Source of the DNA: Zygnema cylindricum
Lineage: Eukaryota; Streptophyta; Zygnematophyceae; Zygnematales; Zygnemataceae
Assembly: GCA_037447655.1 (NCBI GenBank)
Contig: JBBHKE010001269.1
Location: 149,124-213,123 of the forward strand
Length of the DNA stretch: 64,000 bases
Direction of reading: 5' to 3'
Both the position numbers and the translations under genes were made by a program. The notes beneath the pieces are model-generated. The model did not search any database, was not told where the DNA came from, and was given only the letters and a program-made list of their open reading frames with translations. Shown piece by piece: positions 21,143 to 64,000 of this stretch (position 1 is the first letter of the stretch; the number at the start of each line of letters is the position of its first letter).

Positions 21143-21164
21143 CCAATGTCATGCCGCATGGTAT

Positions 21165-21300
21165 CGGCTGCACGCGGGCACGATGTTTTGCATGCGCGCA
21201 TGATATTTCGCACGCACACACGATATTGTGCACGCGCGCGCGATAATCGACGCGCGCGCACGATATCATGCACGCACGCACGATATTTTGGCACGCATGT
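21165..21300 (+). promoter_or_regulatory. CpG-dense array at the start of A1
   Basis: About seven imperfect units of around 20 bp with alternating GCACGCGCGCACGATAT-like sequence, in the first 150 bp of the repeat. The same kind of array occurs in 50100-50295, 56787-56870 and 62095-62230. Alternating purine-pyrimidine CG/CA runs are both CpG-rich and prone to Z-DNA. A regulatory role is inferred from position only. Confidence 0.5.
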
Positions 21301-21352
21301 ATGAGTTTCATTCGCACTTGCGATTTTGCGCTGGTTCACTTATTTGTGACGT

Positions 21353-21568
21353 GTACGGGATTCGCGTACACGTCTGATTTAATATGTACTAATTTCGTGC
21401 GTACTTTTGTTTCGTTTCATTTCGTAGGTACACGATTTTGGAGTACGATCATGGATTTCATTTGTACCTTGCGTTTCCTATGTACTTTCGGTTTCACCCG
21501 TACCTTTGATTTTGTTGGTACTTTTTCACTTCAAGTGGACTTTCGCGACGTACGAATGACATGTACGA
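21353..21568 (+). promoter_or_regulatory. cluster of GTAC sites in A1
   Basis: Twelve GTAC tetranucleotides in about 215 bp, where about one is expected by chance. GTAC is the core bound by plant SBP/SPL-domain factors and by the copper-response regulator of green algae. Whether it is bound here is unknown. Confidence 0.45.
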
Positions 21569-21642
21569 TCGACGTTTTGTTGGCGCTTTCTCATTGGTGC
21601 GCATTTAAGTCGTGAACCCACGTAGGTTCACTCACACACTTA

Positions 21643-22427
21643 GGCTGCGGCCCCATGTGGCTAAGTTCGGGTTTTTTTCTGTCGTTTTCCTTTATAACTT
21701 AGCGCCGTACTGCCTAAGTTGCGACCGTACGAAGAAATCGCAAATTTGTAAAGTACAATTTGCGTCATTCTTGAACTTAGGATGTACGAAATTTTGTCGT
21801 CTTGCGGTTTTTCGACCCACTGTCACGTCATTTTCAAGCTTATCATAAAACACATCGGCACTGTGTTTTAAGCTAAGCAAATCCGTCTACACCAATCTGA
21901 AAATATATTCCCACGTGTGAAAAGATTTTAGAAGTTTTGACGACGAAAAAAAGTACAGGGTTTGTTTGTTTTTGTCGGCTTGCATGTTGTACGGTTTTTT
22001 TTTTGCAGGGGTCTCGACGCTGCAGTGTCATTTCACGCAAAGTTGAAAAGTCTGCGAACGTGAAAAATCTGCGAAGTAATGGCGGCCTGACGGGAGAGGT
22101 TCACGTCAAGGCATTTTGCACAGCCACGGGCGCAAGGCTGTACGTCAACGATGTCTCGCAAAGACATGCGACATACCAAATCCGCAAATCGTTTCAAAAA
22201 TTACGATGTGTCTTGCGACGCTTCAAAAAGTTTCAAGAAAATATGGTGCGTCATCACAAATTGTACATGGTGACCGCAGTCACGGGCGTTGTCGACGTAT
22301 ACAATTGTCACAAACTTAAGTAATAATTTCGAATGAACACATAGAGACACTTGAAATCCGGGTCCGCCGGATCCGCGCTAAAATACAAAGTAAGTACGCT
22401 AAGTTACAACTACATGGGGCCGCAGCC
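21643..22427. mobile_element. PIF/Harbinger-like MITE inserted in A1
   Basis: 785 bp with perfect 16-bp terminal inverted repeats GGCTGCGGCCCCATGT, flanked by a 3-bp TTA duplication (21640-21642 and 22428-22430). The matching empty site with one TTA is present in A2 near 62571 (CACACTTAGATAGGG), so the boundaries are certain. The 3-bp TTA target is diagnostic of the PIF/Harbinger superfamily. No transposase is recognised; a 128-codon open frame (21937-22323) has no known domain. Confidence 0.88.
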
Positions 22428-23079
22428 TTAGATAGGAAGGGTTTTTTACCCTTGGATTGTGGATTTTGTTAGACGTAAGACAGACGATGTTGGCTCCCTA
22501 TTGGCCAACATCTTAAGTAGTTTCATTCATATAAAGTAGACTAGACGTAGGCTAGTTTCGCGCTAGGCTTAGCTAAGTCCTACTTAGGCTAATTCTCAAA
22601 CTTAGAGAATTTAGTTTTCGGACAAGAATTTTCTCTTGGCGGCGGAGCTGTTTTCTTGCTTCCTCCTTGCCACCGATTGCCCACTATTTCCTTTTCTTCT
22701 TGTTAGCTAGCGATAGATGCTAGTTAGCGTACGGATTTTTCTCTCCTTGTGTTCTACCTCGTTTTTAATCCACACGGCTTCGGCCAAGTCCGGAAGGTTT
22801 CCCTCCAAATTTGTCTTTTTGGCGATTGTTGGAGTGGAGGCTTGAGGCGTGGCATCTTGTATTGGGCTGCGTAGTTCTCCGAACAGCTGAACGGTTTGTT
22901 TGAGTGTATTTGTTTGTGTGGCATTTCGGTTGTCTTGTAAAAGTGCTTTTTTTTTACCGAATCCGAATTTCTTGGTTTGGTTGGAAGTGTTTATTTTGCT
23001 TCGTTGCTTTCCTATGAGATAACTCTTGTAAAGAATACGTTGAAGACCCAAGAGCCTAGTGGCTACCTTGTGGCTTAGT

Positions 23080-23094
23080 ATTCTTGTCCGAAAA
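23080..23094 (+). promoter_or_regulatory. candidate self-complementary primer-binding site (GyA/GyB)
   Basis: ATTCTTGTCCGAAAA, placed exactly at the inner edge of A1, is the perfect reverse complement of 22615-22629 inside A1 (also 62757-62771 in A2). In Tf1/sushi-type elements the 5' end of the transcript folds back onto such a site to prime reverse transcription. No tRNA-type primer site was seen. Confidence 0.6.
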
Positions 23095-23272
23095 AACATA
23101 AAAAAAAAATCTATTAAAAATATAAATTATATTTTATAAAAATAATAAAAAAATAAAACATTTTGTTTTTGTTTTCCGCTATTTCTTTCTTTCAATCTTT
23201 GTCTCTTATTCTGGTGCCACTATATTTCTTGGTATTAGTGTTAAACCTAAATTTTGCAACAAATTTAGGGTT

Positions 23273-25698: not shown

Positions 25699-26008
25699 GA
25701 GAGAGAGAAGGCCGAGCTTCAAGCCACAATGGCGGCCATGATGAAAGAGCAATTTGCGGCTTTCATGGCGGAAATGAAACCCCAATTTACTAGGATGGCT
25801 AGGACCGTTGTCCATATGCCGTCGTTGGCTGGGCGAACACTTCGTGATTCCACCGTCCAACAATGGGTGGCCACATTTAAAAAGGGCTCACTGGACCATA
25901 ACCGAGTGGGCAAATTACAAAATTCTCGTGTCCCACTCTCATTTGTAAAAGAGCCTCTGCTTTCCCTACCGGAAACCTCGCATACGATGGCGAGGGGCAC
26001 TAACCATA

Positions 26009-27598
26009 TTGGATGACACTATTCATGAGGCCCATCGGGTAAAGGAGCGATTGAGTATTTTTTCAGCTATGTTGGAGGATGTACCGAAAGCCCTTCCCCT
26101 TCTTGATGAGGTCGCAACGGCAGCCGCTTTGAGGGCTCTGCAGCTAAACCACAGTTTCTCAGCGGTTCAACCGGTTACTTTGGAAGAGCGTCGTAATCTT
26201 AATCCCCACATCAATTTCCTTGATAACTCTCGGGGATCATTCTCATTGAACGGTGTTCACCCCACTCTTCCTCTCATGGACTCCAGGGCCAAATCCGTGA
26301 TCCTCGGATCTGGATTTGCGCTCAAGCATGGTTTGACAGCAGACAAGCTTCAGGTGACAGCTACCCGCCTTCTTACTTCGGCTGGGACCACGGAGCCAGT
26401 CCTCGGAATCACAAAGGACCCGTTCATTTTTCAGTTTGAGACAGGAACCGAAAATGAGTCCGTTGAAATTGCTGTCAGGGGATTAGTCACTAAATGTGAC
26501 GACTACGAGTGTTTGGTGGGTCAAGACGTTATATTCCGAATTGGTGGTGGGGTGGACATGCACGACCAAACATTTTCTTACCAACCGACACACTTTCCGG
26601 AGCGCAAAATCTACCTCCCTCTCATTTCAACCCGCCGACCTTTGCCCATTATGGCTCACTCGGCCACGGCTCTTCCCGCATTTTTGGGGAACTCCTTTGG
26701 GGAGGAAATTTTCCACTCTCATTCGGCTGAAGAAATTACACCGGATAGTTCCCCCTTACCCGAGCTCTTTGCGGAACCGGGTTTTCTTATCAATTCTCAT
26801 ACATTTGATTGTATTTATAAGTCCACATTATCTATTCCATTAACGACTATCCCTCTTATACCTACAGTTGCAACCGATCTTTCAGGTTTCCTTCCAATCA
26901 GTTGGAAGCCTGTACAGCTGAGTCCTCATACGGACGGGGTCGTTATTTTAGATCTATTCGCTGGGATCGAAACTTCACTATTGTCATGTTTACGGAATAG
27001 TCTCCTCATCATTCACTACTATGCAGTAGAAATTGATGCATTAGCTAGAAAAGCACAATTGCACCACTATAATCTCCTGCATTCACAATATCCACAGTTG
27101 TTTCCAAAGTTAGCCTTTCTACACATGCACACTGCTCTTCCACAAGACATCGACATCCTTAGTAATCATCATCTACGGGATGTCGAACCGATAGACCTTG
27201 TTTTCGGGGGGTGGGAGTGTCAAGGCATGTCTTGGGCTGGCAAAGGTCTTGGTTTGGCGGATCCCCATACTAAATTGTTTTTTGAGCTTTTGAGGGTTCT
27301 TCATTTTCTTCAATCCATGGCTAACCCTGTCGGATACATTTTAGAGAACGTCGCCGCTTATAATGATCCTCGCCCAACAGTTTTGACTGACTATAAGCGT
27401 ATAAAACACCTTATCGGACCCCGGCTAATTATTGATGCCGCTCGGCATGGGTCCCTAGCACATCGGGTTCGCTCCAAATGGACGGACCTAATCAAAGTAG
27501 GTCGCCTTCGCGAGGCAAATTTTTTTGTAAAACCTCCCACTACACATTACGATCGCTTTGCTTCCCTTTCACCAAGTCCAATCATGTGTCCAAACTGA
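26009..27598 (+). CDS. GyB Pol part 1: aspartic protease-like region + C5-cytosine methyltransferase
   Basis: 529 open codons. Residues about 85-190 have a retropepsin-like layout (LPLMDSRAKSVILG in place of D-S/T-G-A, then a hydrophobic ECLVGQDVIF strand). From about residue 308 a C5-methyltransferase domain is evident: motif I VVILDLFAGIETSL, motif II YYAVEIDALARKA, motif IV GGWECQGMSWAG with the catalytic Cys in ECQ instead of the usual PCQ/PCN, motif VI ILENVAAY, and a motif VIII-like HRVRSKWTDL. The target-side and C-terminal motifs continue in another frame at 27558. The enzyme class transfers methyl groups from S-adenosylmethionine to cytosine in DNA. It lies between protease and RT, so it would be made as part of Gag-Pol. 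Confidence 0.85.
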   Translation: MDDTIHEAHRVKERLSIFSAMLEDVPKALPLLDEVATAAALRALQLNHSFSAVQPVTLEERRNLNPHINFLDNSRGSFSLNGVHPTLPLMDSRAKSVILGSGFALKHGLTADKLQVTATRLLTSAGTTEPVLGITKDPFIFQFETGTENESVEIAVRGLVTKCDDYECLVGQDVIFRIGGGVDMHDQTFSYQPTHFPERKIYLPLISTRRPLPIMAHSATALPAFLGNSFGEEIFHSHSAEEITPDSSPLPELFAEPGFLINSHTFDCIYKSTLSIPLTTIPLIPTVATDLSGFLPISWKPVQLSPHTDGVVILDLFAGIETSLLSCLRNSLLIIHYYAVEIDALARKAQLHHYNLLHSQYPQLFPKLAFLHMHTALPQDIDILSNHHLRDVEPIDLVFGGWECQGMSWAGKGLGLADPHTKLFFELLRVLHFLQSMANPVGYILENVAAYNDPRPTVLTDYKRIKHLIGPRLIIDAARHGSLAHRVRSKWTDLIKVGRLREANFFVKPPTTHYDRFASLSPSPIMCPN

Positions 27599-31384: not shown

Positions 31385-31387
31385 TGA

Positions 31388-31675: not shown

Positions 31676-31742
31676 TGATTCTGCCCAAAACCTCTTTCTT
31701 ATCTTTTATCTGACAACATACTTCTAGCAATATCACTTAGTG

Positions 31743-31948
31743 TGTCGAGCGGGCTTGGGAACCAGGTGGTTCAGGTAAGATGTCCAAGGAGGTGTGCATG
31801 AGAAACCTGCAATCCACCCCAAATGCTGATGCTTCCCCGGATCCGTGACAATGCCCATCCTTGTTCATTACCCCCTCCCCCAGGGATATGCATAGATAGT
31901 AAGGAGGAATGGAGTGGAAAAGAAAAGTACCCTGTACCCCCCCAGATT
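31743..31948 (-). repeat. GyC B2 repeat
   Basis: 206 bp, nearly identical to B1 at 33141-33346 and of the same length. It forms the outer 3' end of the element next to the AGTG duplication. Confidence 0.85.
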
Positions 31949-33138
31949 TCTTGTACTACTCCGCTGGAAGCCCACGAAATGCCACACTCCCAGCTACTCT
32001 CCAAAGAATAGGAAGGAAATGAGAGTCGTCCGATCCTTTCCGCAAAACTCCGGACAAACCCAAAGATGACCACAAGAGTTTGCAAATAACTCCCACGCTG
32101 AAATATAGAAATAACAAATATCGACTTTTTAGATTAAACAATATCACCTTGCCCCAGAGAATGGAATTAAAGATAGAAATGAATGATAATGGTGAAGCCA
32201 ATTCACATACCCCGGAGTGCAACGATGACCAAACTCAGTAGAAGAAAACCTCTCCCAATGGCTCCGAAGTCAAGTATGAGTCTCCCTCAACCCTCCCGGT
32301 TCCACCGCAAGGATGTGACAAGACTCTTCTTAGTTTCAAACAGCAAAAGTCCAAACCGCCCAAAGAGGATATTGTGCCAACTACCCACCCGTGCTACGGT
32401 CTCCACAAAAGTCAATCCAAAACAAAGATGGCAATAGAGTCAACGACACAATGGAAACGTTCTCCAACACAAAGAGTGATTTAATTCTCTGGGGGTTTTC
32501 TCAGGGGACAGTACTGAAAAAGCAACCTGTCTCCTTCGGCCCCAAGTGCCTTATACAACCAGAGTTTGTCCTACTGCAAGTTCCAAAGTCAAAGCAATGT
32601 GACAAGCCAATCAGCGGCCAACCATTGTTATCGTACGAACATAACACCAAACAGACTGTACTACACTCAGGGCTAAAAGTTAGACGACTGGTCCCGGCTA
32701 GATTAGCGGCCGAGGGTCCTCCTATTATACACAAAATGGAAACAAAGTTCTGACTCGACGTGAAACCGCCTAACTTTGACCCAAAGTCATTAATGCTTGG
32801 CCCGCCTGTTGGGCCTAAACTAACATCCTACTGACAACTAACAGTAGGATCTATGGGATAATCCCAAAGGTTACGTGTCGTTCTCTAATGTATCCCTCTA
32901 CTAGAGCTACATAGAACACACAATATAATAGAGCAGACGCTTTGCACCGGACTAACTCCGCCGTTCGGCCTCCGTTTCAGGTGAACTAAATTGCGTAGGG
33001 CTCCAGAGTGAAAATATAAAGATCTGATCCAGCTAGTTGTCCTCTTCCTTCTCCGTGCGCTAGAGTCCGTACAAAGTGGAATGAGGCCCCGGAACTCCAA
33101 GGAGTGCAAATGTGCCGACGATGCATACGAGCTTGACA
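31949..33138 (-). repeat. GyC A2 repeat
   Basis: 1,190 bp matching A1 (41301-43731 after removing the solo LTR). Its plus-strand right end GCTTGACA meets B1 through GC, forming GACAGCTGTC at 33135-33144. It also contains the segment (32508-32533) complementary to the primer site. Confidence 0.85.
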
Positions 33139-33140
33139 GC

Positions 33141-33346
33141 TGTCGAGCGGGCCTGGGAACCGGGAGGTTCAGGTAAGATGTCCAAGGAGGTGTGCATGAG
33201 AAACCTGCAATCCACCCCAAATGCTGATGCTTCCCCGGATCCGTGACAATGCCCATCTCTGTTCATTACCCCCTCCCCCAGGGATATGCATAGATAGTAA
33301 GGAGGAATGGAGTGGAAAAGAAAAGTACCCTATACCCCCCGAGATT
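33141..33346 (-). repeat. GyC B1 repeat
   Basis: 206-bp direct repeat of B2, lying between the G14 tract and A2. In an ordinary LTR element the sequence after the polypurine tract would be the start of the 3' LTR and would equal the 5' end of the element; here it does not. Confidence 0.85.
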
Positions 33347-33360
33347 CCCCCCCCCCCCCC
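33347..33360 (-). promoter_or_regulatory. GyC polypurine tract (G14)
   Basis: Fourteen C on plus, i.e. G14 on the coding strand, directly before B1. It corresponds to the G9 and G10 tracts of GyB (49880) and GyA (61875), so it is the likely plus-strand primer. Confidence 0.75.
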
Positions 33361-33394: not shown

Positions 33395-33784
33395 TTAGCC
33401 GCCAAACTCGCAGTCCCCACAGAACCACGGATTTGCAAGTTGAGAGCGGGGCTCCCAATTCAGAGGTAGGCAGCAGTCATGCCACCCCTTGTGACAGTGT
33501 TCACACACCAACAGGAGGTTGGGTGCGGAGGACACATGGCAGGCAGAGGAACAGGCTGGAGGGTCTGCAAAATAAGGGAGGTGGAAAGTGGGTTCATCTT
33601 CTAACCCTCGCACATGGCAAGGGGCCACATTGATCTGTTTTTTTTTAATTTTGCGGCCATCCTTCCCCTCCAAGGTAAGAACCCCTTTGTTTGAGACCTC
33701 CACAACTTTCAGAATCACGCGTCCGGCCGAAATGTCCAAAGTATCCTTCTTCTGTTGCATGCGATACATTAAATCCCCGGGCAC
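33395..33784 (-). CDS. GyC integrase C-terminal barrel-like region + PHD finger
   Basis: 129 codons. The first half (GDLMYRMQQKKDTLDI ... KKKQINVAPCHV) resembles the small beta-barrel after Gypsy integrase. The second half is a C4HC3 PHD finger: CSSAC, LVCEHCHKGWHDCC and WFCGDC, with a C-x2-C-x4-H-x2-C core. PHD fingers read histone tails; here it probably tethers integrase to chromatin, as chromodomains do in other Gypsy elements (inference). Confidence 0.82.
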   Translation of the reverse strand: MPGDLMYRMQQKKDTLDISAGRVILKVVEVSNKGVLTLEGKDGRKIKKKQINVAPCHVRGLEDEPTFHLPYFADPPACSSACHVSSAPNLLLVCEHCHKGWHDCCLPLNWEPRSQLANPWFCGDCEFGG

Positions 33785-33859
33785 AAATCGACGTTGCTGG
33801 GGGATATAATTGCCGCTCCGTCGTTGGGAATACCAGAGTTGATCTCTGTGCTGAGCATC

Positions 33860-49853: not shown

Positions 49854-49879
49854 TCAGCTCCTCCGCAGGCTAACGAGCT

Positions 49880-50080: not shown

Positions 50081-50082
50081 GC

Positions 50083-51366: not shown

Positions 51367-51379
51367 CTCCCCTTATTTT

Positions 51380-52057
51380 CTAGTCAATCTTTAATTTCAG
51401 ACCACACTTCTCCCTGCAAAAAATTAGCTTAGGGGAAGGCACAGGTTTGGTCATCATATCTGCTACCATCTCACTATCTGGTCGGTTCTCTAAACTGATT
51501 ATTTTGTTTCCTACTTTCTCTCTAACAAAGCTGAGCTTAATGTCCATATGTTTGGCTTTAAAATGATGTTTAGGATTGGCAGAAATAGCGATTGCTGCCT
51601 GATTAACACAAAAAAATTTATGCACACCACTCTTAAGGTGACCAAGCTCACCAAGCAAAGCTTTGACCCACATCAATTATTTTACAGCAGAGCAAGAGGC
51701 CATATACTCAGCCTCTATGGTGGACTGAGCAATAACTTTTTGTTGTTTGCTACTCCAACTGCAAGCCCCATCACCCACATATAATACATATCCAGAAGTG
51801 CATCTCCTCATCAAAGCATCACCATAACAGGCATCACTCCAAGTAGTGATGTCAGTATTCTCCCCACCCAAATGCAACCATAGATCCCTAGTTTTTATCA
51901 AATATCTAAGGACTCTCTTAGCTGCCTCCCAATCTCTCTTAGTGGGAGAATTTTGACTTATACTCAGCACTCCTACAACTGCAGCTAAATCCGGCCGGGT
52001 ACAATTCATAAAATAGATTAGACTTCCCACTACTTGCCTGTAAGGAATAGTCTGCAT
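51380..52057 (-). pseudogene. CoB RNase H
   Basis: Two frames: 52057-51677 (CTRPDLAAVVGVLSISQNSP, WSDACYGD, IEAEYMA) and 51676-51380 (CVNQAAI; the Asp of CDNQ is changed to Val). Copia RNase H with an altered active-site acid, so probably dead. Confidence 0.78.
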
Positions 52058-52121
52058 GAACTTCTCTTCTTCAAGAGATAATTCCTCGTCTAAGACTATG
52101 ACTCCTTCTTCCTCACTCCCC

Positions 52122-52928
52122 TCACTTCCCTTTCTTCAACTCCATTGGAGTTGTACAACTATTAGCTTTATCCATCTGAAATTTTTCAAGCATGTTCCCT
52201 ATTGCTTCCTTTTGAGTCAATCTTATAATCTTTCTTTTTCGGTCTCTTTCTACTGGAATTCCCAAAATATATTTTGCTTCCCCCATATCCTTCATTTCAA
52301 ATCTCCCCTTAAGATCGGTTTTCAGTTTATTAATTTTTTCCATTGATTTACTTAAGACAAGCAAATCATCAACAAAAATTGCAATAAATATAAAACCTTC
52401 CTCATCTTCGAAAACATAGATTGACTGATATGAGCTGATTCGGATATATCCCAGACCGGTAAGAAACTCATCAAGCTTCTTATTCCACTGTCGAGGCGCC
52501 TATTTGAAACCATAAAGAGAATTAATCAGCCGGCATACCTTACTCTCCTCTCCTTCCTCCACAAACCCTTCGAGTTGTCGCATGAAGATCTCCTCTTCCA
52601 ATTCTCCATGCAAAAAGGTTGTCTTGATTTCCATCTGGTGCACTTCCATGTCTTCTGCTGCTGCGAGACTGAGAAGTATGCGGACGAAGGGAAGTTTTAC
52701 GACCGGGGCAAAGGTTTCCTCCTAGTCAATTCCCTCCTTTTGTGTAAATCCCTTTGCCACTAATCTGGCCTTGTAGCGCTCGATTGTGTTATCTGGGTTC
52801 AGTTTTAATTTGAAAACCCACTTACAACCAATTGGTTTTCGGTTTGGTGGACAATCCACCAGCTCCCAAGTATCGGCTGCAATAATTGAGGCCATCTCCT
52901 CATTGATGGCGGTCTTCCACCGATTACT
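52122..52928 (-). pseudogene. CoB reverse transcriptase, broken
   Basis: The open C-terminal frame 52364-52122 (MKDMGEAKYILGI) follows FVDD. The upstream RT to about 52800 is readable but interrupted by stops and has HQMEIKTTFLHG, with Glu for the motif A Asp. Different damage from CoA RT. Confidence 0.7.
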
Positions 52929-53690
52929 TTATGGACAAGTCATCGCCTCTCCATAAGTCTGAGGTTCATCTTGATGAGATAGTTTTGTTCCCTTGTTATT
53001 AACCTGTTTTTCTTGCAATCTTTTGCTACTTCTCCTCCCCCCTTCAAAATTTGAGGCCGTAATAGATGGTTCTCGTGGATTCTTTCGAACAATCTCGGCT
53101 TCTCCCCTATCCCTTGATTCCGAATCAATTTCCACCACGTCTTCCGCTTCGGGTAGAGTTGTCACATGAGTTTCCACAGCCGAGTCATTTTCTGTCTGAT
53201 TTGTACCTGCAAGAATGTCATCTTCTATACAACCTGGATAGTTAGGAAGCTCAAAGTCATCGGAATTTTCTGACTCAGATCTAATTTTTACCGACTTTGT
53301 ATATTTGAAGGGATCCACAGACTTTCCTTCATCCATAACTACTAGATGTTTTACTAAGATTATATCTTCCCTTTTTAGATCATAAACTCTATATCTTTTA
53401 ACATCCTCATAATATCCTAATAAGTATCCCGGTTTTCCTTTAGGATCTAGCTTCCAATTAGACCGATCTGTATCTAGTCTAAATACTTGACTGCCGAAAA
53501 CTTAAGTGAGATATGTCTGGTTTCCGGCCTGTCCATCTCTCATAAGGTGTTTGATATTTTATAGCTGAAGTAAGAACTATATTTTTGAGGTAATTAGCAC
53601 ATTTTATTGATTTAGCCCAAAACCTTTTTCCTATTTTCTTATCTGATAACATACTTCTAGCACTATCACTTAGTGTTCTATTTAACCTTT
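52929..53690 (-). pseudogene. CoB integrase C-terminal part and linker
   Basis: The linker frame 53336-52929 parallels CoA 30872-31384. The preceding integrase C-terminal region (53340-53690) keeps recognisable peptides but is frameshifted. It covers the site (AGTG near 53668-53674) where GyC is inserted in CoA, and so provides the empty site. Confidence 0.68.
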
Positions 53691-54193
53691 GAGCTACCCC
53701 ATTCTGTTCCGAGTTTTGTGGAACTGTCTTTTGGTGTTGGACCCCATCTTCCCTCAGAAAATCCTCAAACTGGTTAAAAACACACTCTCCACCATTGTCA
53801 CTCCTTACTCTCTTGATTGGAGTTTCATGGAGTTTTTCGCTCCATGCTTTATATTGTCTAAAACAATCCTACGCTTCGGACTTGTTTTTCAAAAAATTCA
53901 CCCGGGAATACCGAGACCAATCATCAGTGATAGTCATCATAAATCTCTTCCCCCCCCGGTGAGGGCACTTTAGCCGGTCCCCAAATATCTGTGTGTACTA
54001 GATCTAGAATTTTTTCTCCCTTATAGGTGGCTGTTTTAGGAAAGGGTATTCTATGTGTTTTACCTTGAGCACATCCACTACAATCACTTATATTATCATT
54101 CTCACTAAACGTAATCCCTTCCACCACTCCCATATTTTTCATCTCTCTTAACTTGTCTAGATTCACATGCCCAAGCCTCTTATGCCACATCAT
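53689..54193 (-). pseudogene. CoB integrase catalytic core
   Basis: Starts WHKRLGHVNLDKL as in CoA and retains HTDIWGP, but a frameshift at a C-run near 53955 ends the frame at 53924. The catalytic Glu codon in the VAER motif reads CAA (Gln, 53689-53691). Confidence 0.75.
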
Positions 54194-54238
54194 AATATCA
54201 TGAACACCAGCATAATAAAGTTTCTTCTTTTCATTACT

Positions 54239-54582
54239 TTAAACTAGCCTAAACATCGCATGGCTACCTTTCTCAGCAATGAAATAGACATCCTCCTCAA
54301 AACTAGTAGTAAAGACTCCTTCCTTAGTGCTAGTAAAAAAACCCTTATCATCTAATATGGATGTAGACATGAGGTTTTTGTTCAGCTCCGGAATAAACAA
54401 TACATCAGAGAATGTTCCTATTGATGTCTTTCCTTCTACTAACACTTTCAAATCTACCGATCCTACAAGAGTAGTGGTGATTATCCTCCCATCCCCGTAC
54501 TCTATTTCTACGGTGGGAATATTTCTTATCTTAGTGAACAAGTGCCTATCCTTACACATGTGCATGGAGGCACCTGAAACTA
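54239..54582 (-). pseudogene. CoB protease with altered active site
   Basis: Same protein as in CoA, including Val for the catalytic Asp (codon 54578-54580) and the same upstream TAA. Confidence 0.8.
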
Positions 54583-54595
54583 CAATCCAGCCTGT

Positions 54596-55324
54596 TTAAC
54601 CTTTCAATCCATTGTAAGCACATTTCTGCCTTCGTGGTATTTCGACCTCGTTTTTCGCCTCCAACTTGTCATCTAAAAGGAGCTCATCGTCCTCGTCCTC
54701 GAATTCCGCCTCATGTACCTGTGTCACAAGGGCCTTTTTCTTTCCTCTCGGGGTACCACCGGTCTGCCCCTCCTTTAACCGAAGCTCGGTTAGCTTAGTG
54801 CACTCTGTCATATAGTGCCGAGGTTTCTTACAAAAATGACATAAACTTTTGGGAGCCCTTGGTCCGAACTCGTCGGTCTGATTTTTCTGCTCCTTCCCCC
54901 CATAGTTTCCGACCGGTTTCCTGAAATCCTTGTTTCTCCAATCGGTCCCAGTTGCCAAGGCTTGGCCACTCTTTCCTCCCTTTCGGATCTCAATCGTATT
55001 CTCCCGAACGAAAATCATCCCTACCCCTGAGTTCCATATCCACCTTGAGTCCGGCAAGTCCTTCACACGATTGACTATGTTCTCGAACTCATCAGGTAAC
55101 TTCATCAGTAAACAGTTAACCTTTTCTTTTTCACTAAAATCTTTTCCCGCACTCTCTAGCTCCATGAAGATTGTAGCAAGCTCATTGCAAAAATCCAACA
55201 TGTTCCCCCCTTTGTATACATATTCCTTAACTTTCTGATTAGCCAACTGTTGTTGCTGAATCGTACCACTTTGGTACATCTCTATGAGAGCCATCCAAAG
55301 ATCGGATGCCCTTTCTACCTGCAA
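54596..55324 (-). CDS. CoB gag
   Basis: 242 codons identical to CoA gag, with zinc knuckle CHFCKKPRHYMTEC. The shared offset of 9,942 bp holds across gag, protease and flanking fragments. Confidence 0.8.
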   Translation of the reverse strand: MQVERASDLWMALIEMYQSGTIQQQQLANQKVKEYVYKGGNMLDFCNELATIFMELESAGKDFSEKEKVNCLLMKLPDEFENIVNRVKDLPDSRWIWNSGVGMIFVRENTIEIRKGGKSGQALATGTDWRNKDFRKPVGNYGGKEQKNQTDEFGPRAPKSLCHFCKKPRHYMTECTKLTELRLKEGQTGGTPRGKKKALVTQVHEAEFEDEDDELLLDDKLEAKNEVEIPRRQKCAYNGLKG

Positions 55325-55406
55325 ACGAGGACATTCAAGTCATTGAGTGAGATGGCGTAGGATGAAGTGCTTTGCCGCCATATTGTTAAAGTCCCAGGTT
55401 TCACTA

Positions 55407-55653
55407 TCATTCTCCTCGTTCCTCCGAATAAGTGACATGAATGCTTAACCACTTGCTATTGGTGTGGTCGCCTCTTCTCCTTTCCTTTTTCCACCACCTC
55501 TCCTTCTTTTGTTTCGTCCTTTGAAGGTGGATCCTCTTTCCTGGTGAATCTGCTTCCTCCAAACCCTGGAGGAATTCCAAGACTTGATGGACGCCCCAAC
55601 CGTTCACTCACTATCCCCCAAAACCTTTTTACGCATAGAGCTCCTATCATCAT
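55407..55653 (-). pseudogene. CoB gag N-terminal fragments
   Basis: Same two broken frames as CoA 45465-45711, with the same lesions. Confidence 0.5.
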
Positions 55654-55717
55654 ACTTTCCCACTATATGAAGCCAGTTCCATTAAAGATTGGTACTCTAG
55701 AGGGTGGGCCCATAACT

Positions 55718-56786
55718 TGAAACTCAAAGACCTCCATAAGTCCTCAGAGTGAACAACTTCTAAGAAGCCTCTAGGATAACTCTGACCCCTTTGTGTTTCA
55801 GCAAGAACAATTGCCACCATGGCAGACAAAAAATCTGACCAACTTCACCCTTGTGAAGGCATGACTTCCCTGAGTGGATAGCAAAAAGAATCTCTGAATT
55901 TGCTTCCCTGAGCAGTAAGTTATTGAGGGTCAAAGTTGACCTTTTGTACAGAAGCTCTCTGGGAGAGACGGTCCTATCTCCTAATTTTTCTAAGTCCTAT
56001 CTCTCTCACAGACTCTATCTACTGATGTAGAAAGCCAATCATATTCCACTTCCGTACAAAAAAGTACAGCTGCCGGTGTACTTTTTGTACAGACATTGTA
56101 CGACATGGCCTAAATGTCGATACGTGGTATATCCGGATTTGCTCCCTTAATCCTCGGAAATTTCGCGATCCAATGTTATTCCGCCACGTGTCATCCGATG
56201 TGGCGATGACCACAAACCGCCAAAATCCTCTTGCGCGATCTCCGCGTTCATTCCGGCCGTCCGATTAAATTCACATTTAATCGTAGCCGTAATAAATACT
56301 TGCGCGGTATTCGTTTCGCTAAAGAAACAAATGCGCGGTATTCGTTTCTTTATCCGTACCAGAATCCGTACTTTTACATTACTGGATCTATGTATCTCGT
56401 AAATAGTTTTAGTTAAATGAATTATCTTACGTTGCAATGTTTAACTTAATATCGAACCCTATAGTACATAACACTAGGTCTAGACATAACGGATAAGGCT
56501 ACCGGCTACTAGCTGCTTACCGTCCGGCAGGACCGGGAACAAATCTTGGGGAAAGCACATATCCTTTTAGTAAATAAACCTTTAACGGTAAATAAACTAG
56601 TATATATATTCCCGTAAACCTCTGGATAGCCTAGGTAGCTTTGGCTCTAGCTTCCTCTCCAATTTCTCAGTGACTGTGACAAGTTTGAGAAGTTGCACAG
56701 AGAAGTTAAAGGTAAACTGCCTCGGCTTTTTCCTATATTTCTATTTAGACCCAAAAAATACTTTAAACGGACCATTAATTTCTACA
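55718..56786 (-). repeat. CoB 5' LTR
   Basis: The left part (to about 56050) is almost identical to the CoA 5' LTR; the right part matches CoB's own 3' LTR better. This marks the edge of the shared tract. Confidence 0.85.
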
Positions 56787-57773
56787 CGCGCGCGATATTT
56801 GGCGCACGCGCATGATTTCATTCACGCGCGCACGATATCATTCACGTTCGTACGATATTTCGGCGTGCGTGTCTAATTTTTGGTCGCACGTGCGACCGCG
56901 ATTTATTTATGTTGGACGTGTACGCGATTCGCGTACACGTCTAATGGAACAAGTACTAATTGCGTGCGTACTATTGTTTCGTTTCGTGCGCAAGTACACA
57001 ATTTTGGAGTACATACGTGAAGTATCGTTTGGCGATGCAGCGCGATATCCGGGAGTACCATGGACGCTTCGATGTACCGTTATATATTTAAGTCGCGAAC
57101 CCATGTAGGTTCGCGTGTACATGTAGTTAGGGAGGGTTTTTACCCTCGGACGGTGGATTATGCGGAACGTACGGCAGACAATGTTGGCCGCCTATTGGCC
57201 AACATTCTAAGTAGTTTTATACATGTAAATTAGACTAGACGTAGGCTAGTTTCGTTTAGGCCTAGCGTAGCTTCTACTTAGTCTATTTTCAGACTTAGAA
57301 TTTCTAGCTTTTGGACAAGAATTTTCTCTTAGCGGCGGGGCTGTTTTCTTGCTTCCTTCTTGCCACCGATTGCCCACCATTTCCTTTTCTTCTTGTTAGC
57401 TAGCGATAGATGCTAGTTAGCGTACGGATTTTTCTCTCCTTGTGTTCTGCCTCGTTTTGAATCCACACGGCTTCGGCCAAGTCTAGAAGGTTTCCCTCCA
57501 AATTTGTGTTTTTGGCGATTGTTGGAGTGGAGGCTTGAGGCGTGGCATCTTATATTGGGCTGCCCCGTTCTCCAGACAGCTGGACGGTTTGTTTAAGTGT
57601 ATTTGTTTGTGTGGCATTTCGGTTGTCTTGTAAAAGTGCTTTTTTTTACCAAATCCGAATTTCTTGGTTTGGTTGGAAGTGTTTATTTTGCTTCGTTGCT
57701 TTCCTATGAGATAACTCTTGTAAAGAATACGTTGAAGACCCAAGAGCCTAGTGGCTACCTTATGGTTGAGTAT
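56787..57773 (+). repeat. GyB A2 repeat, right part
   Basis: Continues A2 after CoB. Contains the segment related to the primer-complementary site (57310-57325, one mismatch) and ends before B2. Differs from A1/GyA A2 by several subfamily changes. Confidence 0.8.
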
Positions 57774-57964
57774 AATTATAGGGGTCACTTCAGGCTAGTG
57801 GAGTATTCTTCCCTTTTATTCATTTGGTCATCTTCACCTTTATTCTTTTGCATGTTGTATATACATTTTTTCCGTCTCATTCATTTTCGTTTCTATATAT
57901 GTTTGGAGCAGGACTTTGTTGGTTGGGATGTATGTTCACTCTTTCTAGTCTCCCATGCACGACA
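57774..57964 (+). repeat. GyB B2 repeat (right end of GyB)
   Basis: 191 bp, close match to B1 at 49889. Ends GCACGACA, followed by TTGG and directly by GyA methyltransferase sequence, so this is the right border of GyB inside GyA. Confidence 0.8.
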
Positions 57965-58742
57965 TTGGACCCCCGCTAATTATTGATGCCGTTCGGCATG
58001 GGTCCCTGGCACATCGGGTTTACTCCAAATAGACAAACCTAATCGATGTCAGTCGTCTTCGTGAGGCTAATTTGTTTGTAAGACCTCCCACTACATACAT
58101 TACGACCGCTTTGCTTCCCTTTCACCAAGTCCAATCATGTGTCCAAACTGACTACCCTCCGAATTACAACATTAATGTACCTAGCCAGCCCCTCAAGGTC
58201 CTTCCTACTTTAGTGTCTTACCCTAATTCCCATGCATACTCTCATAACGGTCTAGGCATGCTCCGGAATAATGTCACTGGAGAGTTAGAGGAGCCTACGG
58301 CCACAGAATGGGAGAATCTCATGCATTTTATTCCAGGCACTTCTGCAGCCCCGGCCTTACGGATAGACAGCGTTGCACTTTGTTGGGTAGGGTCATGGAT
58401 CCTCAGTCTTTATCATTTGTCTTAGGTCTCGGCCTTGCAGCTGGTCGCTACATATAGAATGACCCTGTGCAACCATCTGGGGGGGGGAATACGGCGGCTC
58501 TTTCACGCCTTGTTTCCTCTCGCACCTCTCCTAGTCTAAAGGGAAATCCATTTCAGTTTTTTCTCTTCCCTTCTCTCACACTTGCGGTTAAAGACATCTC
58601 CATCTATGATTTCCTCATTCCCAGTCATATGTCTTGGGAAATCCCGGCCTATACATCCATTCAATCCACAATTTCATCGTTTCCTAGTCGGCACTGCACT
58701 GGACAGTTGCATTTCCGACGCGTAGCTGGCACCAGTGGGTGA
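57965..58742 (+). pseudogene. GyA methyltransferase C-terminal remnant
   Basis: Parallel to 27412-28140 of GyB. The frame 58072-58428 keeps LPTLVSYPNSHAYSHN and GELEEPTATE. Stops and frameshifts interrupt it, and 58467-58742 continues the post-methyltransferase region. Motifs I-VI are absent because GyA's left half is missing. Confidence 0.75.
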
Positions 58743-59462
58743 ACTACTTGGAGCAGACTCCGGTAAAATATGAGTTAGGCCACTCACTCATCGCCGATGA
58801 GCAAATTGCATTTGCTCAGGCCATGGAAGCTTTCACTATCAAGAGTCCCGAGACGCCCAAGTGGAATTTCGATTCCAGTCTTACAAAGGCGGAACAGGCA
58901 CTATTAAGTGACACAGTCAGCCGTCATATAGATGCGTTTGCTTTCTCCATGAATGACCTTGGACGTCATTCTACTTACAAAATGTCAATCGACCTTGAAG
59001 ACGATCGACCTAATCTTTAAGCCGAATCATCGTCTCTCCGAAATGGAATGGGAGATGGTGAACAAAAGGTGCGCAAAATTGGAAGAAGCTGGTCTGATCT
59101 ATCGATCGAATTCCACCTTTGCCGCCCCCACAGTCATTCCTAGGAAAAAATATTCTGAAGGAAATTTTACTGAACGAAGAATGTGTGGGGACTACCGAGA
59201 GCTCAATGCTCGGACCGTTCAAGACCGCCACCCTATGCCTCTAGCAGAGGAAATATTTGACCATGTAGGTGGTGCAAAGTTCTTTAGCATTCTTGACTTG
59301 CGTCAAGGGTTTAACCAGATTGAAATTGAGGAAAGAGATCGACATAAAACTGCATTTTGGGGCAGTGATGGTCGGTGGGAATGGGCAGTCATGCCTTTCG
59401 GTCTTAAGAAACGCACCCGCCGTGTATTAAAAATTCATGGATTCGGTGCTTGGTGGATGTAA
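58739..59462 (+). pseudogene. GyA reverse transcriptase, N-terminal part
   Basis: 58739-59020 encodes TPVKYELGHSLIADEQIAF and the RT lead without the stop seen in GyB. A one-base insertion near 59012 shifts the frame, and RT continues in 58953-59462 with FFSILDLRQGFNQIEI. It shares the VMPFGLK frameshift with GyB. Confidence 0.8.
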
Positions 59463-59937
59463 ATTTGCTCAGTGCTACATCGATGACTTGATAATCGCTT
59501 ATGCCACGGTTGAGGAGCACACGCGCCATATTGAGTGGGTTCTCACGAAGTTAAAGAAAGTCAGGCTGAAGTGTCACCCAACCAAGTTTACTTTCAGTGC
59601 GGAGGGAGTGCCTTATCTCGGCCATTTTATTTCGGCTGAGGGCATCACTCCGTTAGAAGCTAAGGTAGAGGCGATCACCAAACTGCCGCCCCCCAGTGAT
59701 CTCACTAGTCTGAGGGCTTTTCTCGGACTAGCCAATTATTACCGTCGGTTTGTACTGAATTTTAGTACGATTGCTTCTCCCCTCAATGACCTACTCAAAA
59801 AAGAAGTGCCTTTTGTTTGGGGACCCGCCCAAGTAGAAGCGTTTCAAAAACCGAAAGCCGCTCTTTCCAGCGCTCCTATTCTTCGACCTCCTAACCACAA
59901 GCTTCCCTTTTGCCTACAAACCGATTTCGGGAAGTAA
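59437..59937 (+). pseudogene. GyA reverse transcriptase, C-terminal part
   Basis: YIDD motif and thumb as in 47350-47850. The proteins differ at only three visible positions (PPSDLTSLR versus PPTYLTSMR). The same stop after LQTDFGK. Confidence 0.82.
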
Positions 59938-60306
59938 GGCATTGCGGCTATTTTAACGCAAAGAGAGTTGAATGGAGAGGAATACGTAGTGGCATACGCC
60001 AGCCGGAGCAATAATTGAGCTGAATCTAACTACACTAGTTACGAGGGTGAATGTCTCGCCGCGGTATGGGGTATTGTTCATTTTCGACATTATCTTTACG
60101 GCAAGCCATTCACGCTCCTAACTGACCATCAACCCCTTCATTGGTTGATGACCAACAATAAGCTTTCAAGGAAGCTTGCCCGATGGGCTTTAATTTTACA
60201 AGAGTACGAAGTTGAGATCATCCATCAGTCCGGTTTGTTAAGCATGAACTCCGACGCGATTTCTCGAAATCCACTACCTCGGACCACCGATAACGGTGCC
60301 CGGTAA
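59938..60306 (+). pseudogene. GyA RNase H C-terminal part
   Basis: Readable in frame pieces: GEEYVVAYASRSNN, stop, then HFRHYLYGKPFTLLTDHQPL and IIHQSGLLSMNSDAISRNP. This is the normal Gypsy RNase H end that is lost from GyB. 60307-60531 is spacer. Confidence 0.7.
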
Positions 60307-60531
60307 GATTTTGACGAGGACGAGGTACTCGCCATGTAGGCCAGTTCCTATATCACTTACTGTCTCTCTTCTATTCCTCACCCTCGGCCGACCACAAATC
60401 CGTGGCGCGACGACCAATTAATCCTTTTCCTCTCCTCTTAAACCTTTCGGCCTGGTACCACTGTTGAGGAGGAAGACCGAGTAAAGAAACGAGCCAAAAA
60501 TTATCTGTGGCTCGGCGGATCATTTGTTCGA

Positions 60532-61500
60532 TTGTTGGCAAACAGCAGCCATCGACATGTCCCCTGGCCAACCGAGCGTTTGTCCTTGATTAAGCAGATA
60601 CATACCGAGCTCGGCCACTACGGGACCAAGCGTACTTTGAGCCTTGTACAAGCACGCTATTGGTGGTCAGGAATGCAATCGGATGTGGCGGCCATTCTCC
60701 ACAAATGCGCCACATGCGACTGGTTAAGCACCTCTTTCTCTAATCGGCAGGTATCTCTACAGCCATTGCCTATCAGAGGATTGTTTTATCGCTGGTCCGT
60801 GGATCTTGCTGGATCGTTTCCCTTATCTTGGAACGGGAAACAATACATCATGATAATGAATGAAAATTTCAGCAAGTGGGTAGAGGTGGTCGCTCTTCCC
60901 CACAAAACCGCTAAATTGACCACGGCTGCTTTTAAAAAGCATGTTCTCATACGTTATGGAGCTCCTGCAGAGGTTATCACGGACCAAGGTACGGACTTGC
61001 GAGGGAAATTTCAAGAGATGTTGGACGAAGCTTTAATTGATCATCGGCCAACAGGTCGTGAACACCCACATGCCGATGGCTTGACGGAACGATTTGTCCA
61101 AACTTTCAAGCAGGCTCTCTGAAAGCATTGTTTGGAGAAACACATCTCCGTGTGGGACGAATCCTTGGGTTATATCACCATGGGCTACCGGATGTCCGTA
61201 CAGGCTAGCTTGGCTAATTTCAGCCCGTACTATATTCTCTTCGGTCGAGCACCCTTGCTCGGTCGAAATATTCAGTAAACGACAAGTTTACCTTTGCCTC
61301 TAATGTCTGACACCATATTTAGGGAAGAACTAACTCCCCGTGCTTTGCTTTTCGCTCGTGAGATGCCCATGGCTTTTGATAATTTGAAGATTGCCCAAGA
61401 TCGTGATACTTTAAGGTTCGCCACCACGGAGTGGCACTTACAAGCCACAACAGAAATCCTACTGGGTCGGCGATTAGGTGTACCTCCGACGCCAGTCGTT
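60532..61500 (+). pseudogene. GyA DDE integrase, with stops
   Basis: Open from 60532 to 61122: HTELGHY ... CATCDWL, SVDLAGSFPLS, TDQGTDLRGKF and LTERFVQTFKQAL, so the three acidic residues are present. TGA at 61120-61122 stands where GyB has CGA. The remaining integrase (61123-61500) is readable with another stop near 61277. Confidence 0.8.
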
Positions 61501-61517
61501 CGATACTTTGGACATAG

Positions 61518-61811
61518 ATGTTTCACCACACATTCTTCGTGTGGTGGAAATGGATGCTTACGAGATGTTGGGTTTGCAGGTGCCGATACAAAGATAGTTC
61601 GAGAGCATTCGAAGAACTGTGCACCTTGTTACTTATCGGATTTGTCACAAGATATGGATCTGATGAGGATGCCAATCACAAAAGCGACGAAATGTACCAT
61701 TTGCAGGGGAGCGACGGCGAGACTTCCATGCTCTTGTGCGACCATTATAACCAAGGGTTCCGCATAGAGTGCTTAGTTCCTCCATTAACAGCTGTGCCAG
61801 CTGGCCATTAG
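61518..61811 (+). pseudogene. GyA PHD finger, degenerate
   Basis: LLCDHYNQGFRIEC has Tyr for one zinc-binding Cys and Arg for the zinc-binding His; the first Cys pair (CTIC) is in another frame (61294-61767). Non-functional copy of the domain at 49545. Confidence 0.75.
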
Positions 61812-61874
61812 TTCTGCCATGGCTGTTGTGAGCTGCCGACGGTTTTGACCAGCTCCTCCGCAGGCTAACGAGCT

Positions 61875-61884
61875 GGGGGGGGGG
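61875..61884 (+). promoter_or_regulatory. GyA polypurine tract (G10)
   Basis: Ten G after GAGCT, directly before B1. Confidence 0.75.
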
Positions 61885-62075
61885 AATTATGGGGTGCATC
61901 TCACTCTAGGGGAGTATTCTTCCCTTATCATTCTTGATTATATTCATGTTCATTGATTTTCATGGTGTATGTACTTTTTGCACTCCATATTCGTTTTCGT
62001 TTGTATGATATGTTTGCAAGCATCACTTTGCAGGTTATGATGCATGATTTCCTTGCTTCTCCCTCATGCACGACA
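61885..62075 (+). repeat. GyA B1 repeat
   Basis: 191 bp starting AATTATGGGGTGCATC, matching B2 at 63224-63414. Meets A2 at the palindrome GACAGCTGTC (62072-62081). Confidence 0.85.
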
Positions 62076-62077
62076 GC

Positions 62078-63223
62078 TGTCATGCCGCATGTTATCGGTT
62101 GCACGCGGGCATGATGTTTTGCACGCGCGCCCGATATTTGGCACGCACACACGATATTGTGCACGCGCGCGCGATAATCGACGCGCGCGCACGATATCAT
62201 GCATGCACGCACGATATTTTGGCACGCATGTATGAGTTTCATTCGCACTTGCGATTTCGCGCCAGTTCACTTATTTGTGACGTGTACGCGGTTCGCGTAC
62301 ACGTCTGATTTAATATGTACTAATTTTGTGAGTACTTTTGTCTGTTTTATTTCGTAGGTACACGATTTTGGAGTACGATCGTGGATTTCATTTGTACCTT
62401 CCGTTTCCTATGTACTTTCGGTTTCACCTGTATCTTCGATTTCGTCGGTACTTTTTCACTTCAAGTGGACTTTCGAGACGTATGAATGACATGTACGATG
62501 GACGTTTTGTTGGCGCTTTCTCATTGGTGCGCATTTAAGTCGTGAACCCACGTAGGTTCACTCACACACTTAGATAGGGAGGGTTTTTTACCCTTGGATT
62601 GTGGATTTTGTTAGACGTACGGCAGACGATGTTGGCTCCCTATTGGCCAACATCATAAGTAGTTTCATTCATGTAAAGTACACTAGACGTAGGCAAGTTT
62701 CGCGCTAGGCTTAGCTTAGTCCTACTTAGGCTAATTCTCAAACTTAGAGAATATAGTTTTCGGACAAGAATTTTCTCTTGGCGGCGGAGCTGTTTTCTTG
62801 CTTCCTCCTTGCCACCGATTGCCCACTATTTCTTTTTCTTCTTGTTAGCTAGCGATAGATGCTAGTTAGCGTACGGATTTTTCTCTTCTTGTGTTTTGCC
62901 TCATTTTTAATCCACACGGCTTCGGCTAAGTCCGGATGGTTTCCCTCCAAATTTGTCTTTTTGGCGATTGTTGGAGTGGAGGCTTGAGGCGTGGCATCTT
63001 GTATTAGGCTGCGCCGTTCTCCGAACAGCTCGACGGTTTGTTTGAGTGTATTTGTTTGTGTGGCATTTCGGTTGTCTTGTAAAAGTGCTTTTTTTTACCA
63101 AATCCGAATTTCTTGGTTTGGTTGGAAGTGTTTATTTTGCTTCGTTGCTTTCCTATGAGATAACTCTTGTAAAGAATATATTGAAGACCCAAGAGCCTAG
63201 TGGCTACCTTGTGGCTTAGATTA
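62078..63223 (+). repeat. GyA A2 repeat
   Basis: 1,146 bp, very similar to A1 (21147-23079) apart from the 785-bp MITE. Provides the MITE's empty site near 62571. The primer-complementary segment is at 62757-62771. Confidence 0.85.
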
Positions 63224-63414
63224 AATTATGGGGTGCATCTCACTCTAGGGGAGTATTCTTCCCTTATCATTCTTGATTATATTCATGTTCATTGTTTTTC
63301 ATGGTGTATATACTTTTTTCCCTCCATATTCGTTTTCGTTTGTATGATATGTTTGCAATCTTGACTTTGCTGGTTATGATGCATGATTTCCTTGCTTCTC
63401 CCTCATGCATGACA
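63224..63414 (+). repeat. GyA B2 repeat (right end of the nest)
   Basis: 191 bp ending GCATGACA, followed by CCAA, which matches the left flank at 21143-21146. Confidence 0.83.
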
Positions 63415-64000
63415 CCAACTCGACCAAAATGAACGACACGTGGATAAGAGTAAGAAACATTCGCAGTTGTGAGGGAGCGTTGAGGCCTAAAATAAACACT
63501 TCAAACCAAAACCTCGTGCTTAGCGCGGACTTTATTCCAATCACCTCGGAAGAAACGTTCTATATCTAGCCATAATCTCACAAGCCCCACTATACCGATT
63601 TACGTTATTAGTGTTTTAAATTATTTTTGCCACTTAAAACATCTTCTCTTTGTGCATAATTGTCGGATTGTTAATTGGAGGTCGCCAATTGGGAGCTGAG
63701 AATCTTACATTCCAATAGCAAACATCAGATTGACAATCCGACAAGTGTGCACTAAATATTGATGTTTTAAGTGGTGAAGCAAACTTATACACTAGTAACG
63801 ATTACAGGTGTAGTGCCCCCACGAGATGGTTTAACGAAACCCACAAAGAAAACATGAAGAGAAGATAGCAAGGAGCAACGACAAAATGTGCGATAAAGGA
63901 AGACAAAGTGAGTCATGCATCAAAGTCCACAAGGTGATGGGACTGCTCTCACAAAATTGAGGTTTTTGAGAACGAGTTAGCCCAAATCATAACCTCTCAA
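63415..64000. other. right flank, no gene seen
   Basis: AT-rich sequence outside the retrotransposon nest. No supported open frame or RNA gene. It holds the foldback element below. Confidence 0.55.
63603..63800. mobile_element. 198-bp foldback (MITE-like) element
   Basis: Imperfect inverted repeat over its whole length: CGTTATTAGTGT pairs with ACACTAGTAACG at the ends, and CCACTTAAAACATC pairs perfectly with GATGTTTTAAGTGG further in, with more pairing around TTGTCGGATTGT. No coding potential and no clear target duplication. Confidence 0.65.

Follow-up and report, generated by a model that had tools for sequence, protein, structure and literature searches.

PAT elements, members of the DIRS order, carry split direct repeats in the arrangement A-ORFs-B-A-B (ORFs, open reading frames) and encode a tyrosine recombinase (PMC4157794). 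The KnitGypsy-Dnmt3 repeats of Klebsormidium nitens are described as having the structure of a DIRS retrotransposon together with the domain composition of Gypsy (de Mendoza et al. 2018, PMC5890265, Fig. 4 legend), and the same paper reports DNA methyltransferase domains for Gypsy elements of that species. Its passages on KnitGypsy-Dnmt3 mention no primer site, duplication, joint or mechanism, the terms 'circular' and 'primer binding' are absent from its text, and we found no mechanism for this layout in the open-licence papers searched. Here we analyse a 64,000-nucleotide stretch of the Zygnema cylindricum genome (contig JBBHKE010001269.1, positions 149,124 to 213,123 of the forward strand; hereafter the window), which contains a nest of long terminal repeat (LTR) elements. 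Three of them, GyC, GyA and GyB, belong to Ty3/Gypsy, carry a DDE integrase and are laid out as A-ORFs-B-A-B; GyB lacks its left end. The original prediction held this combination to be undescribed, a claim that falls because the 2018 legend reports DIRS-like repeats with Gypsy domains. The layout with Gypsy domains is already known; the new part is the proposed sealing of the complementary DNA (cDNA) ends together with an internal palindromic attachment site. Judging from sequence, we think it probable that these self-primed Ty3/Gypsy elements undergo ordinary reverse transcription, have their cDNA ends sealed and are inserted by an integrase acting at the internal palindrome, which would leave a permuted provirus.

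The anatomy read from the letters was confirmed by self-BLAST and module extraction (Table 1). In GyC and GyA the left end is, as predicted, a lone A repeat followed at once by the primer site, and the right end of all three elements runs polypurine tract, B1, the dinucleotide GC, A2 and B2, its coordinates likewise holding good. B1 and B2 match in length as had been claimed (206/206 in GyC, 191/191 in GyA and 192/191 in GyB). A1 and A2 are 95.3% identical in GyC and 95.5% in GyA; the corresponding values for B1 and B2 are 96.6% and 95.3%, and 91.6% in GyB. In place of the complete, identical LTR that Ty3/Gypsy elements have at both ends, we found a lone A on the left and B-A-B on the right.

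GyA extends from 21143 to 63418. GyC lies on the minus strand, nested in a Copia element (E1, 28375-46834), and a second Copia element (E2, 50296-56786) splits the A2 of GyB. E1 has matches to Copia gag and integrase, and E2 is 92-96% identical to E1 across long shared blocks; both have ordinary LTR pairs and thus provide, on the same contig, an internal control against misassembly. The right flank of GyB, TTGG, runs into GyA sequence homologous to that at about 27413; GyB thus probably lost its left end in an exchange with GyA.

The order of domains in pol, reverse transcriptase and RNase H and then an HHCC-DDE integrase, is that of Ty3/Gypsy elements, and domain matches bore out the predicted Gypsy domains and integrase class. 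GyC encodes all three, the integrase with its conserved residues, GyA and GyB retain pieces of them in broken frames, and the integrase profile matches the Ty3 and prototype foamy virus (PFV) integrases among solved structures. The domain scan covered 30 ORFs, two of them Copia; the original prediction had set these elements apart from those with a tyrosine recombinase, and none was found among the 28 ORFs of GyA, GyB and GyC scanned, all above the length cut-offs. GyC also has a weak match to a PHD finger (6.8e-04, below Pfam's cut-off). The 5' part shared by GyA and GyB contains a C5 DNA methylase domain (25949-27598; 1.5e-08), as does a relative on contig L001 (L001:3-3488; 6.8e-12), and the search with the methylase domain returned two proteins. 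The GyC ORF at 36917..37294, which has no Pfam match, holds what we take to be the first C5-methylase motif only. To the extent that KnitGypsy-Dnmt3 is described in the passages cited, these elements resemble it in their Gypsy domains, their DIRS-like repeats and a DNA methyltransferase in pol, the last being a domain in GyA/GyB and L001 and one motif in GyC.

The insertion boundaries, TGTC...GACA, are to the base the two halves of the palindrome GACA-GC-TGTC (GACAGCTGTC). The predicted 4-bp duplications proved exact, CCAA for GyA and, for GyC, CACT on the element strand (AGTG on the plus strand). An empty site for GyC is present in the window, where the sister Copia element E2 is uninterrupted and has a single AGTG; the flanks of GyC minus one AGTG align with it gaplessly. 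GyC is therefore delimited as TGTC(A1)...(B2)GACA with a 4-bp duplication, although its A1 now starts TC, the TG having mutated. Including copies outside the window (L numbers, see below), left and right ends could be paired in 13 cases, of which 10 have an exact 4-bp duplication (GyA, GyC, L021, L024, L025, L028, L031, L033, L043/L057 and L044/L058). A short target duplication of constant size and TG...CA ends are features of Ty3/Gypsy elements, in contrast to PAT/DIRS elements, which leave no duplication. At the B1/A2 boundary, where the palindrome stands, spacing is constant in 21 of 21 copies, which differ by substitutions only.

We searched the host assembly (352.8 Mb) with B1 and the start of A2 and scored 40 of 858 candidates; loci were picked for long cover, and the copy counts given here are not genome-wide totals. 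We analysed 29 loci with B-A (L014-L042), treating GyB apart and leaving out the shorter matches C1170, C32, C571 and C2450. A is followed by B in 21 of them and by a primer site and gag in one, and in seven it is broken before its end (L014, L017, L027, L036, L038, L040 and L041). The layout thus extends well beyond a single accident, as predicted, and most other copies keep it. B is preceded by pol in 27 of the 29 loci (BLAST) and by a G-run in L037; the B of L022 lacks its start. The 29 fetched loci contain no ordinary left LTR (flank-B-A-primer site), and the 22 copies that could be judged include no ordinary right end (A then flank). None of the 14 left ends with preceding sequence has a B before A, and in the seven left ends followed through, A leads straight into the 5' internal region. 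The fetched stretches contain no left end for L015, L016, L018, L019, L023, L026, L030, L032, L035, L037 and L039, nor the A1 start of L034; L017, L038 and L041 have a left end and a broken right end, and for L014, L027 and L040 neither was found.

The sole exception to B-A-B among the 22 is L029 (contig C2547, minus strand), where Pol-B-A-primer site-gag stand in a row in a tandem-like arrangement. L058 with L044 (contig C125, about 106,700-116,433) reads A-ORFs-B, with the exact duplication GAGT and no A2-B2; possibly a 1-LTR circle was inserted there through its single palindrome, or B1 and B2 recombined later. L046 has the appearance of a solo A-B with a duplication matching at three of four positions, and L047, fetched as a B-only match outside the 29, is B-GC-A without a further match to A.

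The signals for reverse transcription lie at the edges of the repeats. The G-run ends exactly at the start of B1 in GyA, GyB and GyC and the primer site begins exactly at the end of A1 in GyA and GyC, so that, as in Ty3/Gypsy elements, a primer site follows the left repeat and a polypurine tract precedes the right one. The primer site can pair with part of the A repeat that it follows, over 15 nt in GyA and over 23 nt exactly (26 with one mismatch) in GyC, and none of 400 shuffles reached either match. Self-primer matches of 15 and 16 nt were found in L049 and L029; in L077 no more than 279 nt of A are present. A polypurine tract before B and a self-complementary primer site after A imply that the copied LTR is B-GC-A, and reverse transcription of elements of the GyA/GyC type looks ordinary. 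From such an LTR the standard pathway would make a linear B-A-ORFs-B-A, and it has no way to put B behind the second A, since synthesis of the minus strand begins at the A end. Most simply, the A-then-B joint would arise from the joining of both cDNA termini.

In line with this, the A2/B2 joint is not constant among copies. We tallied 24 joints, comprising the 21 right ends that bear B2 minus L018 (degraded A tail) and L035 (N), plus L043, L045, L046, GyA and GyB. Three are blunt (L028, L032 and GyB), ten have one or two extra bases and no trimming, two show microhomology and nine are trimmed, with or without filler, the extreme being 127 nt trimmed and 66 nt of filler. The joint of GyC, counted apart, has three extra bases. 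The 66-nt filler in L033 (contig C2666) ends in GGACAGCTG, which resembles half of the attachment palindrome. A variable A2/B2 joint beside a constant B1/A2 boundary indicates that the cDNA ends would be sealed and that the integrase would cut the internal palindrome; that A2/B2 is an end-joining scar and not a templated joint appears strongly supported. Later indels could explain single A2/B2 cases, yet the B1/A2 boundary has none. A1/A2 and B1/B2 are equally diverged (Fisher p 0.47 in GyC and 0.85 in GyA), which fits an origin of all four repeats in one cycle.

The provirus is a circular permutation, A-ORFs-B-A-B, and a cycle that would produce it can be drawn from the anatomy. The RNA would run from within A1 to within A2, a segment of A near its 5' end would pair with the primer site after A1, and the G-run before B would prime the plus strand, giving a linear cDNA with the LTR B-A at both ends. 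The termini of this cDNA, where A ends and B starts, would be sealed by end-joining, a step for which support is strong, most simply as a 2-LTR circle formed before integration. The DDE integrase would ignore the cDNA termini and, as the constant boundary supports, act at GACA-GC-TGTC on the B/A boundary inside the LTR. Cuts placed after CA on both strands would leave TGT.../...ACA ends with 2-base 5' GC overhangs, and these ends would be inserted with a 4-bp duplication. B1/A2 would then be the uncut copy of the attachment site, with the end-joining scar at A2/B2. As the permuted provirus could be transcribed again from A1 to A2, the cycle would close. A constant attachment site with a variable LTR-LTR joint is what passage through a 2-LTR circle predicts.

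Several observations weigh against this reading. Blunt joints are a minority (3/24), unlike the circle joints of PFV, which are conserved and blunt in 36 of 40 clones (PMC1180852). In nearest-partner tests the closest sequence to B1 is the B2 of the same element in just 7 of 22 copies, and the closest to A1 is the matching A2 in 5 of 9 pairs and in GyA. Part of this weak result may be due to a rapid spread of nearly identical copies, and in 20 of 22 copies B1 and B2 are closer to each other than most other B repeats are. Three of the 13 pairings have no exact duplication (L022/L048 and L042/L049 match at three of four positions, and L020/L066 does not match). L020 and L042 were kept within the 13 but may be false pairs because their A1 shares far more identity with some other copy (97.6 and 98.7%) than with the presumed A2 (93.3 and 84.1%). 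The self-primer match is only 9 nt in L058, and L053 and L057 have none of at least 9 nt. The GyC family was sampled in the window only, and the contigs of the distant relatives L001-L003 do not show integrated ends. Finally, a circle contains two palindromes, and a cut at the downstream one would give A-B-A-ORFs-B, seen 0 times against 21 (two-sided chance 1e-6 if both palindromes were equally used).

Such one-sided cutting might mean either that the downstream palindrome is masked, that integrase is loaded at the B end, or that there is no free circle. Under the last of these, the integrase would act on the linear cDNA and cut the palindrome closest to its left end; both products, a long A-ORFs-B-A and a short B, would go in by one concerted step, and the original cDNA termini would afterwards be end-joined at the chromosome. 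The layout, the duplications and a variable A2/B2 joint follow from this route as well, and it may also explain why only the upstream palindrome is used, since B is short and places that palindrome near a cDNA end. Against it, every insertion would leave a chromosome break needing repair, and loading of integrase at the ends could bias a circle alike, so that the asymmetry is not decisive. We regard insertion without a circle as possible but unlikely, and favour a circle over joining on the chromosome side because reverse transcription is known to yield 2-LTR circles (PMC11054761).

The other explanations fare much worse. It is very improbable that the palindrome is a transcription-factor site kept for promoter reasons while integration uses other signals: although it includes CAGCTG, presumably an E-box-type core, the boundaries hit both palindrome halves to the base and its place after the G-run is kept in L001-L003. 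Rearrangement of ordinary LTR elements after insertion, by unequal exchange or through tandems, has the tandem-like L029 and the rearranged left end of GyB in its favour; we nevertheless consider rearrangement or misassembly scarcely credible, given that 21 of 29 further copies have the same right end, that the duplications adjoin TGTC and GACA, and that the repeats are several percent diverged. Misassembly and chance were rejected on the Copia E1/E2 controls, the empty site of GyC and the agreement among copies.

As to the PAT/Ngaro-type layout of the original prediction, the split direct repeats A-ORFs-B-A-B are indeed shared by PAT with GyA and GyC; the likeness does not carry over to the A2/B2 joint, which varies here, to the 4-bp duplications or to the DDE integrase, which stands where PAT has a tyrosine recombinase. 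It is limited to layout, because a copied joint would not vary between copies. A DIRS/PAT-like route, in which the split repeats serve as templates for copying B2 and a tyrosine recombinase inserts the circle, would account for the identical layout, but we rejected both templated copying of B2 and this mechanism as next to inconceivable in elements with a DDE integrase, no tyrosine recombinase in the 28 ORFs, 4-bp duplications and A2/B2 joints that look untemplated and differ from copy to copy.

Parts of the route through sealed ends have counterparts elsewhere. In Tf1 and other self-primed Ty3/Gypsy elements, the integrase uses the ends of an ordinary LTR pair. The elements described here resemble the Tf1 type in that the primer site after the left repeat is complementary to that same repeat, and self-priming in Ty3/Gypsy elements has been described (PMC5006619); they differ in that the integrated ends lie inside the copied LTR. 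In bacteria, insertion sequences of the IS911 type use a DDE enzyme to insert a circle via abutted inverted ends a few bp apart, but these are DNA transposons without reverse transcription or LTRs. The 2-LTR circle was once proposed as the route of retroviral integration (Panganiban and Temin), until linear DNA proved to be the precursor; the model fell partly since a circle junction should have given extensions of 4 bases, whereas those observed had 2 (PMC11054761). The 2-bp spacer in GACA-GC-TGTC would give a 2-base extension. In vitro, PFV integrase cuts its own 2-LTR palindrome with a 2-base 5' overhang (PMC1180852), and HIV-1 integrase cuts a 2-LTR palindrome as well (PMC1905944). Our elements share with the circle model a palindrome in which ...CA and TG... 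stand face to face, and would share with PFV the 2-base overhang; whereas the retroviral palindrome is the LTR-LTR joint, here it would be a fixed internal site, with the scar elsewhere.

An integrase search matched 223 proteins, and the hosts among the 120 matches listed include Klebsormidium, Calypogeia, Riccia, Marchantia and Closterium. Among the matches listed, a good part have PHD fingers, and the GyC integrase has its best match in a K. nitens protein (48% across 71% of the query). In an integrase tree of 62 rows, examined for grouping with the K. nitens element, GyC and GyB stand on long branches at an open fork and have no firm place. Scans of viral contigs yielded nothing usable. A scan of genome contigs found five with this integrase (L001-L005), filed under bacterial or archaeal metagenome bins and in all likelihood eukaryotic contamination of these. 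Three of them, L001, L002 and L003, reach past pol and occupy separate places in the tree (L001 apart from L002-L003); their integrated ends are not visible. Each has GACAGCTGTC exactly once, with 108, 57 and 56 nt, respectively, from the G-run to ACA. In the 98 kb examined, five exact matches to GACAGCTGTC were found (GyA and GyC included) against 0.09 expected with equal base use. The palindrome is extended to 16 bp in L002 and to 20 bp in L003, and B is short in all six elements measured (56-206 nt). L004 and L005 end before the right end, and L004 has a palindrome with one mismatch inside its long ORF. The ends of the L001 contig overlap by 127 identical bases; this is an assembly circle and no proof of a DNA circle.

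Overall, the balance tips slightly towards an LTR lineage, spread across distant hosts of the green plant line, that has shifted its integrase attachment site away from the cDNA termini to a fixed internal palindrome and relies on end-joining of the cDNA ends, the opened 2-LTR circle, discarded for retroviruses, being its usual route to the provirus. If so, the ends made by reverse transcription would be separable from those used by integrase, although the two have been regarded as inseparable, and these elements would be a natural case of integration requiring joined cDNA ends, in which the old circle model could be tested in a eukaryote. It would also give a reason for the DIRS-like repeats of the published Gypsy element. 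LTR-finding software should be alert to such elements, which have no ordinary LTR pair.

Table 1. Features of GyA, GyB and GyC in the window (window coordinates).
Feature	Position	Strand
GyA left 4-bp duplication, CCAA	21143..21146	+
GyA A1 (21147-21643 + 22427-23081), lone A at left end; insert 21644-22426 with inverted ends	21147..23081	+
GyA self-primer segment within A, complementary to 23080-23094	22615..22629	+
GyA primer-binding site, directly after A1 (includes last 2 nt of A1)	23080..23094	+
ORF carrying a C5 DNA methylase domain, in the interior of GyA or GyB	25949..27598	+
GyC duplication after B2 (element strand CACT)	31739..31742	-
GyC B2 (31948..31743)	31743..31948	-
GyC A2/B2 joint, extra bases AGA	31949..31951	-
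GyC A2 (33138..31952)	31952..33138	-
GyC palindrome GACAGCTGTC at B1/A2 boundary, proposed integrase site	33135..33144	-
GyC B1 (33346..33141), followed by GC	33141..33346	-
GyC polypurine tract (G-run)	33347..33360	-
GyC end of pol, weak PHD-finger match	33395..33859	-
GyC HHCC + DDE integrase ORF	33860..35137	-
GyC reverse transcriptase + RNase H ORF	35230..36777	-
GyC ORF, presumed first C5-methylase motif only, no Pfam match	36917..37294	-
GyC primer-binding site at A1 end, complementary to 41855-41880	41275..41300	-
GyC A1 (43731..43629 + 42393..41298), insert 42394-43628 inside	41298..43731	-
GyC duplication before A1	43732..43735	-
GyB pol (reverse transcriptase, RNase H, integrase; damaged) + G-run	46840..49888	+
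GyB B1, followed by GC	49889..50080	+
GyB A2 (50083-50295 + 56787-57773), split by Copia E2 (50296-56786)	50083..57773	+
GyB B2; joint with A2 blunt	57774..57964	+
GyA 3' internal region + G-run	57965..61884	+
GyA B1, followed by GC	61885..62075	+
GyA palindrome GACAGCTGTC at B1/A2 boundary	62072..62081	+
GyA A2	62078..63219	+
GyA B2; joint: A stops 3 nt early, then 4 nt of filler	63224..63414	+
GyA right 4-bp duplication, CCAA	63415..63418	+

Other features of the window were noted in passing. Copia E1 is flanked by a 5-bp CCGCC duplication. The insert in the A1 of GyC (42394-43628) is a lone, distantly related LTR-like sequence, and the insert of about 783 bp in the A1 of GyA (21644-22426) has inverted ends around GGCTGCGGCCCCATGT. 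The starts of the A repeats in GyA and GyB (21169-21297, 50107-50293 and 62099-62227) are arrays of 20/40-bp units rich in GCACGCGCGCACGATATT. Upstream of GyA, positions 1982-16418 contain exons that by eye resemble those of a host gene, some parts being EGF-like and others exostosin-like; a search for relatives of one of these exons found none. A long ORF at 18702-20744 resembles, again by eye, the reverse transcriptase of a LINE (long interspersed nuclear element). Just beyond GyA lies an imperfect palindrome of about 199 bp (63603-63800), perhaps a small DNA element.

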